Assembly (NCBI RefSeq): GCF_007752535.1
Contig: NZ_CP036426.1
Coordinates: 8,494,001 to 8,558,000, forward strand
Origin: Tautonia plasticadhaerens
GTDB taxonomy: Bacteria; Planctomycetota; Planctomycetia; Isosphaerales; Isosphaeraceae
DNA length: 64,000 nucleotides
Reading direction: 5' to 3'
The notes below the pieces were generated by a model that made no database searches, was not told the origin of the DNA, and saw nothing but the letters and a program-made list of their open reading frames with translations. Each line of letters opens with the position of its first letter. The stretch's first letter is position 1. The position numbers and the translations under genes are program-made. This document shows, one piece after another, positions 48,381 through 52,424 of the stretch.

Positions 48381-49583
48381 TCATTGGGGGGCGGCCTGGA
48401 CGGTGACGCCCCAGATCTGGATCAGCCCCGGATTGAGGTGCAGCGTGACGACCAGGTTCCCGGAGGAGTCCAGCTCGTAGGACGACGTGTGCGTCGCGGA
48501 GGCGCTGGCCGAGAAGAAGGGCCAGACCCCGAACGACGCCTTGGTCTTGATCGTCTGGAGGTCGGACTGGTTATAGCTGGCGTGGCTGGTGATCGTCAGG
48601 TCGTAGCCGCTGACGAGGACCAGCTGCGAGACCCGCCTCGCCAGCGAGCCGTCCGGCTGCCCGAAGAACGAGTCCCACTGGTTCGGGCTGGAGCTCGGGG
48701 CCCAGACCGTGTTGTCGTTCTTGGCGTTGTAGGCGCGGGAGAACTCGCCCGAGGCGAACCAGCTCCCCGCGTTGACGGGCAAGGTCGCGTACTTGTTGAC
48801 CGTGCCGGTGATCGAGAAGGCGCTGGAGGCGGCCTTGGTGTTGAGCTGGTCGAAGCTGCCGCTGACGCCCCCCGAGAAGATGTCGTAGAAGCCGGTCGCG
48901 GACCCCTCGGCGGTGGTCTGCGTGAGGGTCGAGTTCATGGACTCGGTGTCGAAGTCGATCCCCAGGGGGCCGCCGCCGCCGTTGATCGCGGCCGTGGCGG
49001 CCGTGTTGGTGCAGGAATATCGGTAGAGCGAGTAGGAGGTGCCGTCGCTGGCCGAGAACTTCTGCTTGGCGGCCGGGTCGTTGTAGGCGTTGAGGGCGCC
49101 GTTGAGCGGGGTGTTGTCCTGCTCGTCGTATGCCGTCATGGCCGGCCCGACCTGGTTGGGGTCGAGGTTCTGGTTGGCCCACTGGGTGAAGAGCTGCTTC
49201 TGCGTCTTGTCGGAGTCGGGGTTCTTCGCGAAGTAGGACTTCCTGTAGTCGAGCCAGTTGGTGTACATGTCCCCGAGGGCCGTCTGGAGGTTCGCGCCGC
49301 CGGTCTCGGGCAGGAGCGCGAAGAGGAGGCCCCCGTACGCCGAGGAGCGCTTGGAGATGCCGCCGGAGTCGAAGTAGGCGACGCTGGCCGAAGGCGGCAC
49401 GGCGTCGCCCATCAGGAATAGCCCGCTGGAGTCGGCGGTCTGGAGCCCGAGCGTCCCCTGGGCGAGCATGAAGGTCTTCGGGTCGAGGTTCATGGCCTGC
49501 GCGAGGTAGTTGTACCAGCCGGCGTTGTTCTTGACCACGATCTGCTCGACGTCGCTGCCGCTGGTGGTGGTGAGGGTGCTCAT
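48381..49583 (-). CDS. Unrecognised 400-residue protein, last gene of the PatG-like cluster
   Basis: A protein I cannot place in a family. It starts MSTLTTTSGSDVEQIVVKNN and is rich in Ser, Thr, Asn, Ala and Tyr, unlike the Arg/Pro/Gly-rich neighbours. It has one Cys and no signal peptide or membrane helix. The second half looks beta-rich (ASSAFSITGTVNKYATLPVN, LVLVSGYDLTITSHASYNQS), ending with a strand set SGNLVVTLHLNPGLIQIWGV. An AAGGA site precedes the ATG. It follows the two Cys-rich peptide genes by 105 bases on the same strand and is probably in one transcript with them. A structural or pore/lectin-like protein is conceivable, but nothing in the sequence proves it. Confidence 0.8.
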   Translation of the reverse strand: MSTLTTTSGSDVEQIVVKNNAGWYNYLAQAMNLDPKTFMLAQGTLGLQTADSSGLFLMGDAVPPSASVAYFDSGGISKRSSAYGGLLFALLPETGGANLQTALGDMYTNWLDYRKSYFAKNPDSDKTQKQLFTQWANQNLDPNQVGPAMTAYDEQDNTPLNGALNAYNDPAAKQKFSASDGTSYSLYRYSCTNTAATAAINGGGGPLGIDFDTESMNSTLTQTTAEGSATGFYDIFSGGVSGSFDQLNTKAASSAFSITGTVNKYATLPVNAGSWFASGEFSRAYNAKNDNTVWAPSSSPNQWDSFFGQPDGSLARRVSQLVLVSGYDLTITSHASYNQSDLQTIKTKASFGVWPFFSASASATHTSSYELDSSGNLVVTLHLNPGLIQIWGVTVQAAPQ

Positions 49584-49688
49584 CGTCGTCGTCCTTCGTT
49601 CACAGGGTGCAAAGACGCCCGCCCGACGCCCGGGCGGGCCGAGATCGCTACAGGGATGCCGAGGTCGCCCCGCCCTCGGGGCCGGCGG

Positions 49689-49991
49689 TCAGCAGGGGTC
49701 GCCGACGCCGCAAGGGTGGGTCGACTGGGTGATCGCCCCGCCGGCCTGCGTGCACTGGGCGGCGTGGGTGGTGACGGCCTGGTTCTTCGCGGCGGTGCAC
49801 CCGGCATGGGTGTTGGCCACGCAGACGGTATCGTCCGCCGTCCAGAGGACGTTGGCCCCCTTCCTGCAGACCGCCATCCCGGTCACCATGTATCTCCTCG
49901 ATGGGCCGACGTGCCCGCCGGGGGAGGCACGGGCGGAGGGGGGGCGGGCCGAGGCCCGGTCGATCCCGGGGGCCTGGAGAGGGAGTCTCAT
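49689..49991 (-). CDS. Six-cysteine peptide, putative RiPP-like precursor B
   Basis: A 100-residue peptide. Residues 1-34 have no Cys and are Pro/Ala/Arg/Gly-rich (MRLPLQAPGIDRASARPPSA); residues 35-100 contain six Cys (42, 57, 65, 80, 94, 100), many Thr, Ala and Asn, and end with Cys at the last residue (STHPCGVGDPC). The division into a leader-like and a Cys-rich core-like part, and the position between a PatG-type protease and an unknown gene, suggest a matured peptide. Start: ATG 49991 lies eight bases after GGAG; ATG 49997 is too close to it. An alternative ATG at residue 35 would give only the Cys-rich 66 residues. Confidence 0.6.
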   Translation of the reverse strand: MRLPLQAPGIDRASARPPSARASPGGHVGPSRRYMVTGMAVCRKGANVLWTADDTVCVANTHAGCTAAKNQAVTTHAAQCTQAGGAITQSTHPCGVGDPC

Positions 49992-50036
49992 GATCATGCT
50001 CCGGATGGGTTCGGGTGGGCGGGCCCGGGCGGGCCC

Positions 50037-50273
50037 CTAGGATCCGCAGCCGAAGACCGCGCTGCCGCAGTACGGGAAGCCGTCCGCCTCGCGGCAGCAC
50101 ATCTGGCTGCGGGCGTTGCAGGTGATCGAGGCGTTGCTGTGCTGGCCGCTGCCCCAGCAGGTCTCGAACTGGGGCCGCTGCCCGGGGGGGGCCGACGGGG
50201 CGAGCCGCCCGCCGGGCGGCCCCGGGGGGGCACCTTGCCGGGGGACGGGGGGGGATTGGGGTGGGACTCGCAA
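50037..50273 (-). CDS. Six-cysteine peptide, putative RiPP-like precursor A
   Basis: A 78-residue peptide starting with TTG at 50273, five bases after GAGGA, and only 39 bases after the protease stop. Residues 1-36 are Cys-free and Pro/Gly-rich (PPVPRQGAPPGPPGGRLAPS); residues 37-78 hold six Cys at 39, 52, 59, 60, 69 and 76 (ETCWGSGQHSNASITCNARS, QMCCREADGFPYCGS, FGCGS). The core could form three disulfides or carry modified residues. No cyanobactin leader motif is visible. The TTG start is uncertain, but the Cys-rich part is clearly coding, with G/C-rich third positions and TGC codons throughout. Confidence 0.6.
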   Translation of the reverse strand: MRVPPQSPPVPRQGAPPGPPGGRLAPSAPPGQRPQFETCWGSGQHSNASITCNARSQMCCREADGFPYCGSAVFGCGS

Positions 50274-50312
50274 CGGATCCTCCTCGTGGGTTGGGGTCGA
50301 AACGGGCCCGGT

Positions 50313-52424
50313 TCAGTACACTTCCCATCGGCGGACCTTGCCGATCGTCACGGGAAGCACGTCGCTGACGTCGACCGTCAGGCGGTACACCCGCCGCGCC
50401 ACGTCCTGGCGGCGCGTCGGGTGGAAGAACGTCAGGTTGACGTCCCAGCAGTCCGACCCCGGGCGGGACGACGGGCTCCGCTCGACGTCGATGCGGTCGA
50501 GCCTCAGGTCGTCCTTCAGGGAGTCGGAGTAGACGAATCGCAGCTCGAAGGCGTTGGTCGCGGCGTAGTTGATGGCGCGGTCCCTCGGCTGGATGCCGAG
50601 GTTGCGGATCTCGTAATAGACGCGGTCCAGGAAGTTGGCGACCGCCCCGGCCTGGGCCTCGTCGGCCGTCCGTTTCCCCTCGCCCGCCCCGGGGTCGCCC
50701 AGGACCTCCCGGACGAGGGCGGGGGTCGACCAGCTGAACATCCCGCGCAGCTCGGGGGCGATGACCGGGACCTCCTGGCCGTTGAGCAGCCGGGCCGACC
50801 CGGAGAGCACGCCCGGGATCGACACGCGCTCGACGCCCTCCTCGAGCTGCCCCCGGAGGAACTCGACCATCCTCGCGTATCCGTCGGCGGCGAACGCCCC
50901 GGCCGGGCGGAGGGCGTAGGCGGTCGAGCCCTCCAGGCCCAGGGTCCAGGTGATCGCCTCCGCCGCGAAGCGGTCCCGGCCCAGGTAGTCGACCAGGGTC
51001 GTCGGGTCCAGCAGGTTCCGTCCGGACTGCTGGAGCAGGGAGTCGCGGCGGGCCTCCGAGCCGAAGTCGTAGCCGATCTGCCCGAGCGCGTAGACCGGAC
51101 CCGGACCCGGTGCCGGTGCCGGCCCTGTCGAGCAGCCGCAGGCCGAGGGGGAGACGCCGACCGGGGCCGTCGGCCGCATCCCGACCGGCGGCCCCAGGCC
51201 ACCGGCCCCCTCCCAGGCCGGGCCCCGGGGGGCCTCCCCGCCGCCCTCGACGGGAGGGATGATCGACGGCGGGGGATCGGCCGGACTCTCGTCGACCCGG
51301 CCCTCCGAAGCGGCGTGCTGCGCGGACTGGTTCATGTTGCTCTCCGTGTTCGCTGGGAGATCCGGGATGACTTCCGTCCCGAGGGGGACGATGCCGGGGA
51401 GCCCCGAGCCCCCCGGGGGCGTGGCCGACGGCGGCCCGCCCCGGGGCCCCGTCCCCCCGCCTCGGGCGACCGGGGGGCTCGCGATCGCCGGGGGGAGCCG
51501 GGCGGGCCGCCGCCGGGGTGCCAGCCTGGCCAGGGCCGCCCCCAGGTTGAGGTGCCCGCGGAGGGAGGCCCGGCAGCCTCCCGGGGCGGCCGACGGGTCG
51601 CACGGCGTCGACGTCTCCAGGATCACCTGGCGGACCCGCAGCGGGTCGGCCGGCTCCCCCCGGCGGATCAGCAGGCTCAGCAGCAGCGCCGCGACCCCCG
51701 AGACCACCGCGGCCGCGTCGCTGGTCCCCCCGGACCGGGAGACGAGCCCGCCGGGCTCGGCCACCGGCAGCCCCTCCCCGATGGCCAGGATCCCGTTGTG
51801 CAGGTAGCCGTCGCCCCAGTTGCTGAAGGCGAGCGGCCGGCCGTCGAGGGACGACGCCCCCACGGCCAGCACCGAGGGCTCGCCGGCCGGGGTGTGGATG
51901 CAGTCGCAGCCGTCGTTGCCGGCCGCCGCGACGATCAGCACCCCGGCGTCGGCACACCCCCGGACCGACCGGGCCAGCGCGGGGTCCGCCGCCCCGGCCT
52001 CCACCCGCTGGCCGCCGCTGACGTTGATGACCGTCGCCCCGGAGGCCACCGCGAGGTCGAGGGCCCGGGCGAGGTCGCCCTGCGAGCAGGACGCCGGGGC
52101 GGCGGGCCCGGGGCCGTAGATCGGGATGAGGACGCCCCGGCAGCCCGGGGCCAGGCCGCAGGCCGGCCCCCCGTGCCGGCCGAAGATCAGGCTGGCGATC
52201 CGGGTCCCATGCCCCCCGGCCGCATTCCCCACCGCCGGGCGCCCGGGGATCAGCTCGACTTCGCTTAAATACGCGCCGTGCAAACAGGGGTGCGATCGGT
52301 CGACCGGGCCGTCGAGGACGGCCACGCAGACGCCGGGGTCGCCGCGCGTCTCGCACCAGATTTCCCCCAGGGGGGCGAGCGCGGCGAGCAACGCGCCGCA
52401 ATCGTCGGCGGGGAATCTCCTCAT
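50313..52424 (-). CDS. PatA/PatG-type cyanobactin maturation protease (S8 subtilase)
   Basis: A 703-residue protein. The N-terminal 300 residues are a subtilisin domain with catalytic Asp38 (CVAVLDGPVDRSHPCL), His72 (GGHGTRIASLIFG), oxyanion Asn170 (VLIVAAAGNDGCDC) and Ser235 (SGGTSDAAAVVSGVAALLLS). A Pro-rich linker follows (300-440, with SACGCSTG), then the PatG C-terminal domain (444-703): VYALGQIGYDFGSEARRDSL, AYALRPAGAFAADGYARMVE, RVSIPGVLSG, DRVYYEIRNLGI, INYAATNAFELRFVYS, SDCWDVNLTFFHPTRRQDVA and YRLTVDVSDVLPVTIGKVRR. In cyanobactin pathways PatA removes the leader and PatG releases and cyclises the core. No signal peptide is seen. The start at 52424 fits the family; the frame is open 64 codons further. 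Confidence 0.9.
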   Translation of the reverse strand: MRRFPADDCGALLAALAPLGEIWCETRGDPGVCVAVLDGPVDRSHPCLHGAYLSEVELIPGRPAVGNAAGGHGTRIASLIFGRHGGPACGLAPGCRGVLIPIYGPGPAAPASCSQGDLARALDLAVASGATVINVSGGQRVEAGAADPALARSVRGCADAGVLIVAAAGNDGCDCIHTPAGEPSVLAVGASSLDGRPLAFSNWGDGYLHNGILAIGEGLPVAEPGGLVSRSGGTSDAAAVVSGVAALLLSLLIRRGEPADPLRVRQVILETSTPCDPSAAPGGCRASLRGHLNLGAALARLAPRRRPARLPPAIASPPVARGGGTGPRGGPPSATPPGGSGLPGIVPLGTEVIPDLPANTESNMNQSAQHAASEGRVDESPADPPPSIIPPVEGGGEAPRGPAWEGAGGLGPPVGMRPTAPVGVSPSACGCSTGPAPAPGPGPVYALGQIGYDFGSEARRDSLLQQSGRNLLDPTTLVDYLGRDRFAAEAITWTLGLEGSTAYALRPAGAFAADGYARMVEFLRGQLEEGVERVSIPGVLSGSARLLNGQEVPVIAPELRGMFSWSTPALVREVLGDPGAGEGKRTADEAQAGAVANFLDRVYYEIRNLGIQPRDRAINYAATNAFELRFVYSDSLKDDLRLDRIDVERSPSSRPGSDCWDVNLTFFHPTRRQDVARRVYRLTVDVSDVLPVTIGKVRRWEVY

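Follow-up and report, generated by a model that had tools for sequence, protein, structure and literature searches.

Leader-bearing unmodified bacteriocins arise from a small precursor whose leader is removed and whose core is left unmodified. Patellamide-type cyanobactin pathways combine a PatA-type protease and a C-terminal domain of unknown function (DUF) with precursors in which the core is preceded by a PxxxxPVxR-like element at the N terminus and by a PatA-type site. According to the available parts of the sources, PatA-like enzymes cleave after G(L/V)E(A/P)S (PMC10885120), a macrocyclisation insert is assigned to PatG (PMC4663559), and for the PatG DUF, whose fold is novel, neither a role nor a ligand has been found (PMC4259220). 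Here, we report a four-gene cluster (positions 48381 to 52424) in a 64,000-nucleotide window of Tautonia plasticadhaerens (NZ_CP036426.1), the window being the whole stretch of DNA analysed. The cluster shares protease, DUF and N-terminal element with the cyanobactin pathways, has a candidate PatA-type site that matches theirs loosely and, unlike them, has no PatG macrocyclase, YcaO heterocyclase, RSI or RSIII; its type of core is also longer, mostly Cys-rich and in some cases Cys-free. From the leader-bearing unmodified bacteriocins it differs in its PatA-type subtilisin, its leader and the lack of a recognised transporter-peptidase.

By the features tested, this is no cyanobactin cluster, although the system resembles the step of cyanobactin maturation in which the leader is removed. 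We consider it quite probable that the genes form a PatA-matured system of unmodified, probably disulfide-bonded peptides with a minimal maturation set. This reading builds on the protease type, the lack of the modifying enzymes looked for, a shared leader element (element A) and the recurrence of the protease-peptide pair, all evident from the sequences. No description of a YcaO-less PatA-peptide class was found in the literature searched, whose coverage mostly left out subscription papers.

Results

The protease (703 amino acids; 50313..52424, minus strand) consists of an S8 part (about residues 16 to 301), a linker and the PatA/G C-terminal DUF (about residues 441 to 701; PatG_D plus PatG_C at 50322..51104, minus strand, placed by Pfam and PDB sequence match). 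Its score with NCBIfam model TIGR03895 (577 bits; cut-off, 421) makes it a family member, and it alone of the seven TIGR03895 matches in the window genome exceeded the cut-off. Pfam recognised Peptidase_S8, PatG_D (50 bits) and PatG_C (125 bits), and Asp38/His72/Ser235 aligned with the triad of relatives; an earlier note on this DNA had reported the intact triad and the PatG C-terminal domain, and both were confirmed. The protease is thus like other TIGR03895 PatA/PatG maturation proteases in lying well above the cut-off with its triad intact, and unlike them in being a PatA-like enzyme alone with peptides.

The nearest solved structures to the S8 part, by sequence, were 4h6w (6.8e-82; “N-terminal cyanobactin protease”) and 4h6v (1.1e-70); the latter, with 3zxx/3zxy, we take to be PatA (subtilisin-like protein in the wording of the PDB listing). 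Entries that we take to be the PatG macrocyclase (listed as thiazoline oxidase/subtilisin-like protease) matched more weakly (4h6x, 7.8e-40; 4aks, about 1e-39); their E-values fall behind those of the PatA-type N-terminal proteases by 31 to 42 orders of magnitude. The C-terminal part matched the PatG DUF 4uvq (6.3e-55). The Asp-His spacing is 34 and the macrocyclase insert is absent. Because of this spacing, the missing insert and the PatA-type closest PDB matches, the enzyme is, judged from its sequence, PatA-like, a leader protease and no cyclase; the earlier designation as PatG-type, with cyclisation, is replaced. PADLOC offered nothing beyond a generic hit to subtilases and a very weak one to IetS, and both were set aside.

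For comparison, a collection scan was made in which the best 80 of 195 relatives were kept, giving 77 loci; 83 loci in all became 82 when L105 and L034, whose contigs are equal in length, were taken to be one contig. Record titles name cyanobacteria, proteobacteria, acidobacteria, actinomycetes, Nitrospira, Bacteroidetes and others, many being metagenome bins with possibly wrong naming (one is labelled archaeal). In a tree of the 82 proteases, from which clade membership lists were read, the classical cyanobactin loci formed one group of 38. The exception was L074, whose marker is a PatB-like peptide only and which falls just outside the clade; it is counted among the 44 outside loci. The triad was kept in 42 of these 44, all with an Asp-His spacing of 28 to 38 (L066 is broken and L056 is not alignable there). 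Within the clade, spacing was 34 to 35 in 30 of 37 first copies and 71 to 162 in 14 of 16 second (PatG-position) copies, a count that leaves out L118 and L056, each the sole copy of its locus; the longer spacing is in line with the insert assigned to PatG in the available part of PMC4663559.

Downstream of the protease lie two putative precursor genes. P1 (78 amino acids; 50037..50273, minus strand) has a TTG start and a Shine-Dalgarno-like GAGGAGG at 50279-50285; P2 (100 amino acids; 49689..49991, minus strand) starts with ATG at 49991, with GGAG 7 bases ahead. An internal ATG at 49889 is likewise preceded by a purine-rich stretch, and a shorter P2 from there may be an alternative reading. 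Both peptides carry near their start the 10-residue element A, with consensus (L/V)PxQ(S/A)xPVxR, at residues 3-12 (50238..50267 in P1, which fits LPxQSxPVxR, and 49956..49985 in P2; both minus strand). In the wider family, peptides downstream of these proteases have (L/M/V/T)Px(Q/L)(S/A)xP(V/I)xR; in L068 precursors the element occupies residues 7-16. A matrix built from 53 10-mers of 42 non-planctomycete loci ranked P1 (17.3 bits) and P2 (13.5 bits) first and second among the 345 small open reading frames (ORFs) scored in the window, the next scoring 9.4. They also came out on top with a matrix from 29 cyanobactin-clade-only 10-mers (14.9 and 12.9 bits; next, 8.8). The earlier note had found no cyanobactin leader; by these ranks, both peptides do carry the N-terminal portion of one, and they look like genuine precursors.

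Each peptide has six Cys in its C-terminal part, as previously described, and none within residues 1-30. The patterns are C-x12-C-x6-CC-x8-C-x6-C (P1) and C-x14-C-x7-C-x14-C-x13-C-x5-C (P2). The C-C-CC-C-C order of P1 is presumably that of cystine-knot peptides; it recurs in a Gemmataceae peptide of L067.

The threshold of 11 bits was fixed after the window scan with the 53-10-mer matrix and lies between the scores ranked second (13.5) and third (9.4) there. With this threshold and the clade-only matrix, the 44 outside loci held 77 downstream same-strand peptides versus 8 elsewhere in those loci. A downstream element-A peptide was present in 36 of the 44 PatA-type loci outside the clade (window included). 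Among 23 other S8 protease loci, 0 of 706 small ORFs reached 11 bits (best, 9.7). In the window's own family, a protease above the TIGR03895 cut-off occurred in 6 of 45 genomes (window's included), and in all five others a six-Cys peptide of 58-67 residues, starting MRLP, lies downstream. One more family relative (G016) is below the cut-off, with a broken protease and no such peptide seen. PatG_C was found at E 1e-6 in 8 of 392 planctomycete genomes. The expectation that peptides and the 400-residue neighbour would recur beside such proteases held for leader-bearing, mostly Cys-rich peptides and failed for homologues of the 400-residue protein.

Cys content of the 79 outside peptides ranged from 0 to 8 (at least 4 in 47, none in 20). 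By eye, some Cys-free peptides resemble amphipathic helices, and those of L116, L120 and L121 (enterobacterial, Vibrio; 49 residues, common core GVNPAFW...LKKAG(K/Q)GAL) look bacteriocin-like. Similar cores of the form IGxCFxxNGPxPGxFNCxACCAxR... lie at +120 (L052), +469 (L053) and +1879 (L102) from the protease end, in records of two proteobacteria and one Bacteroidetes bin, a hint of horizontal spread or of a conserved target.

A second element, B, usually follows 9-13 residues past element A and reads G(V/I/L)x(A/P/Q)S in many peptides. Of 77 outside peptides, P1 and P2 not among them, 26 carry G[VIL]x[APQ]S (after shuffling, a mean of 1.1 and at most 6) and 40 carry the relaxed [VIL]x[APQ]S (after shuffling, a mean of 10.3 and at most 19). 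In P1 the element is GRLAPS (50193..50210, minus strand; offset, 11 residues; putative cut after Ser27) and in P2 it is GHVGPS (49899..49916, minus strand; offset, 15 residues; putative cut after Ser31). Element B is thus supported statistically as a candidate cleavage site across the family and matches loosely in the window.

YcaO gave zero matches in the whole window genome (E 1e-5); 23 of 56 genomes searched genome-wide at this threshold (6 family genomes and 50 of the 77 loci) were YcaO-free. LanC had no match in the whole window genome, and none of its 24 radical-SAM matches lies inside the window. The earlier report that these genes are absent from the window thus extends to the genome for YcaO and LanC and stands for the window for radical-SAM. 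No PatF was found among the part of the window genes scanned with Pfam, and no genome-wide search for it was made. The PatF prenyltransferase is optional in cyanobactin pathways, and in some of them so is YcaO. Pfam assigned ten further window genes to methyltransferases, glycosyltransferases, a sulfotransferase, a helicase, an epimerase or unnamed domains, or else gave a repeat below threshold or no match.

Across the loci, YcaO was detected in 9 of 83, all nine in the cyanobactin clade, when flanking DNA was searched with a profile from one cyanobactin YcaO (for the 77 loci the two flanks reach 8 kb apiece at most, and they are shorter on short contigs); in the same flanks, the 44 outside loci had neither YcaO nor a second PatA/G copy. 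Nine clade loci lacked any marker, probably from limited flanking DNA. A second PatA/G DUF was present in 0 of 52 marker-less loci (window included) versus 16 of 30 marker-bearing loci. RSI (LAELSEE, the heterocyclase element) and RSIII (AYDG-like) or a macrocyclase-type C-terminal tail were each found in 0 of the 79 outside peptides (window included); among 40 clade peptides, RSI occurred in 13 and a macrocyclase-type tail in 8, and 19 were PatB-like. No neighbouring protein cluster (at least 100 amino acids, within 5 kb) occurred in more than 10 of the 74 loci without detected YcaO.

The four minus-strand genes run in the order protease, P1, P2 and 400-residue protein (48381..49583), with starts downstream of the protease at 50273, 49991 and 49583, and are separated by 39, 45 and 105 bases; on re-check, the positions, strand and spacing given earlier were exact. 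The co-directional fourth gene is probably outside the system. As previously noted, its product belongs to no recognised family (no Pfam, NCBIfam or PHROG match), and neither it nor P1 nor the longer P2 reading had an NCBIfam match such as TIGR04220 (PatB family). Relatives were absent from 44 other family genomes and 391 other phylum genomes, no significant match was found in the other 82 loci, and viral contigs gave no match. One relative was found in 229 and one in 246 genomes of two other classes; the two genomes concerned had no PatG_C match (n = 2; control genomes of the same search were also without match). A predicted structure (mean predicted local distance difference test score, 36.6) was not used, and a PDB sequence search gave one weak match (0.021), to a phytase, which was set aside.

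Further arrangements were seen among relatives. Two large proteins lie upstream of the protease in the family relatives L032 (2812-7143), L034 (4140-8401) and L037 (4755-9213), and those of L032, where Pfam was run, have VWA domains. In L051 (9986-10830), from another planctomycete family, a PatA-type protease precedes three Cys-rich peptides of the MKLP/MRLP type, in which GIVPS, GVAPQS and GLSPS occur; none of them attains the element-A threshold, and the best score in L051 is just 8.4. The distant PatG_C loci L046-L050 had no ORF above 11 bits. In L046 (8431-10909), L048 (8142-10915) and L049 (882-3437), planctomycetes of two further families, the S8 protease and the PatA/G DUF are separate genes, and the peptides that follow, with several Cys in L046 and L049, share an MxxPGFTAxASLYKT-like leader, a probable second leader class.

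Discussion

In the mechanism that we propose, the PatA-type subtilisin with its cyanobactin DUF would recognise P1 and P2 via a bipartite leader (elements A and B), element A docking on the protease or its DUF. The protease would cut after the Ser of element B, probably in the cytoplasm, freeing six-Cys cores. Because no heterocyclase or macrocyclase step would be involved, the products would be unmodified linear chains, which would gain disulfide bonds after release and may act as antimicrobial or signalling peptides. That the protease matures Cys-rich peptides outside the classical cyanobactin scheme, as the earlier note supposed, appears most likely, leader-bearing peptides recurring beside such proteases. 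Element A tracks the PatA/G protease rather than the heterocyclase, which suggests that it may serve the protease. In the available part of PMC3995012, nuclear magnetic resonance (NMR) peaks of PatE residues 1-15 were unaffected by the heterocyclase TruD, and losing the first 25 precursor residues slowed TruD only slightly; by analogy, PatE residues 1-15 should contain element A.

Several points weigh against this account. In the excerpted text of PMC4259220, NMR showed no binding of PatE' to the PatG-DUF on its own, and the PatA and PatG protease domains were active in isolation, without the DUF; this speaks against a model in which precursors simply dock on the DUF. Element B of P1 and P2 fits the relaxed pattern only, without the strict RSII form, and in the family relatives xxS is replaced by, for example, APQ, APR or QPQ. 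Eight of the 44 outside loci have no downstream element-A peptide, and an unrelated 19-kb stretch (L131) holds one ORF that scores 11.6 bits, less than either P1 or P2. A matrix from heterocyclase-type precursors alone ranked P1 fourth and P2 outside the top six; with 8 10-mers it was too narrow, did not single out the window peptides and was rejected. The regular expression that selected the training 10-mers was written after peptides of both groups had been viewed. Neither a transporter nor an immunity gene was recognised.

Other explanations fit parts of the same evidence. A modifying enzyme for the peptides could be encoded at a distance from the cluster, and the product would then be an undescribed ribosomally synthesised and post-translationally modified peptide in place of a simple disulfide-bonded one; such enzymes can act in trans, and 24 radical-SAM matches lie elsewhere in the genome. 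We regard this as unlikely: neither YcaO nor LanC matched anywhere in the genome, no enzyme is widely common beside the protease in relatives, and the span of 0 to 8 Cys in outside peptides suits a protease independent of core chemistry. A decaying cyanobactin cluster that has lost its heterocyclase and macrocyclase would explain the protease family and N-terminal leader element common with cyanobactins. It is very improbable given an intact triad, the presence of the reduced form in 44 loci of several phyla with the cyanobactin clade nested inside (outgroup-rooted DUF tree), and an RSI or RSIII-like remnant in 0 of 79 outside peptides, although L074 has a PatB-like peptide.

The same strand and the 105-base gap would agree with all four genes forming one unit, in which the 400-residue protein is target or carrier. 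Its absence from the family and phylum genomes searched, the lack of a significant match at the other loci and the PatG_C-free genomes of its two relatives (with equally blank controls) leave that idea hardly any credence. The earlier proposal of a partner, target or carrier thus gives way, and the protein is better seen as a neighbour with no recurrent link to the system.

The reading of a PatA-matured, unmodified peptide system also bears on the origin of cyanobactins. A DUF tree with two distant planctomycete homologues as outgroup placed the 54 clade sequences, from first and from second copies, in a nested group without intruders. Support was 0.66 for the clade, 0.95 for the clade plus L074, 0.99 for a larger group excluding the window's own branch, and 0.65-0.81 for the nodes closest to the root. 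Nesting of cyanobactin proteases within a wider PatA family is suggestive only, because the sampling favours relatives of the window enzyme and the outgroup sits on a long branch. The chances seem evenly balanced that cyanobactins are a derived branch of an older, wider system of PatA protease and DUF that matures unmodified, often Cys-rich peptides via LPxQxxPVxR; the N-terminal 15 precursor residues, the DUF and PatB would then be relics of this recognition between protease and leader, and the heterocyclase and macrocyclase later additions.

The PatB/AcyB/McaB family (TIGR04220) resembles the window peptides in that the member scanned (L070) begins with the same element A, and differs in having a conserved body in place of a variable core; 19 such peptides are in cyanobactin-clade loci and one PatB-like peptide is in L074. 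Instead of being an enzyme, PatB may serve as a ligand or substrate of the protease; in one PatB-like peptide scanned, Pfam found nothing. PatB-like peptides with a precursor-type element A were also observed in L068 (11120) and other cyanobactin-clade loci. L118, a Streptomyces locus placed at the base of the cyanobactin protease clade, has a cyanobactin-type set although it lies outside cyanobacteria: three FADDAE-tailed precursors upstream and one PatB-like peptide downstream.

One idea would thus join three cyanobactin puzzles: the retention of the DUF, the first 15 precursor residues and PatB. The pair also indicates where to seek the precursors of “cyanobactin peptidase” genes in other bacteria, such as the one noted in Roseomonas oryzae in the available part of PMC8776678, and the element A motif is usable for mining small peptides across several phyla. 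Recurring in several phyla, the protease-peptide pair points to an unrecognised family of peptide-maturation systems.

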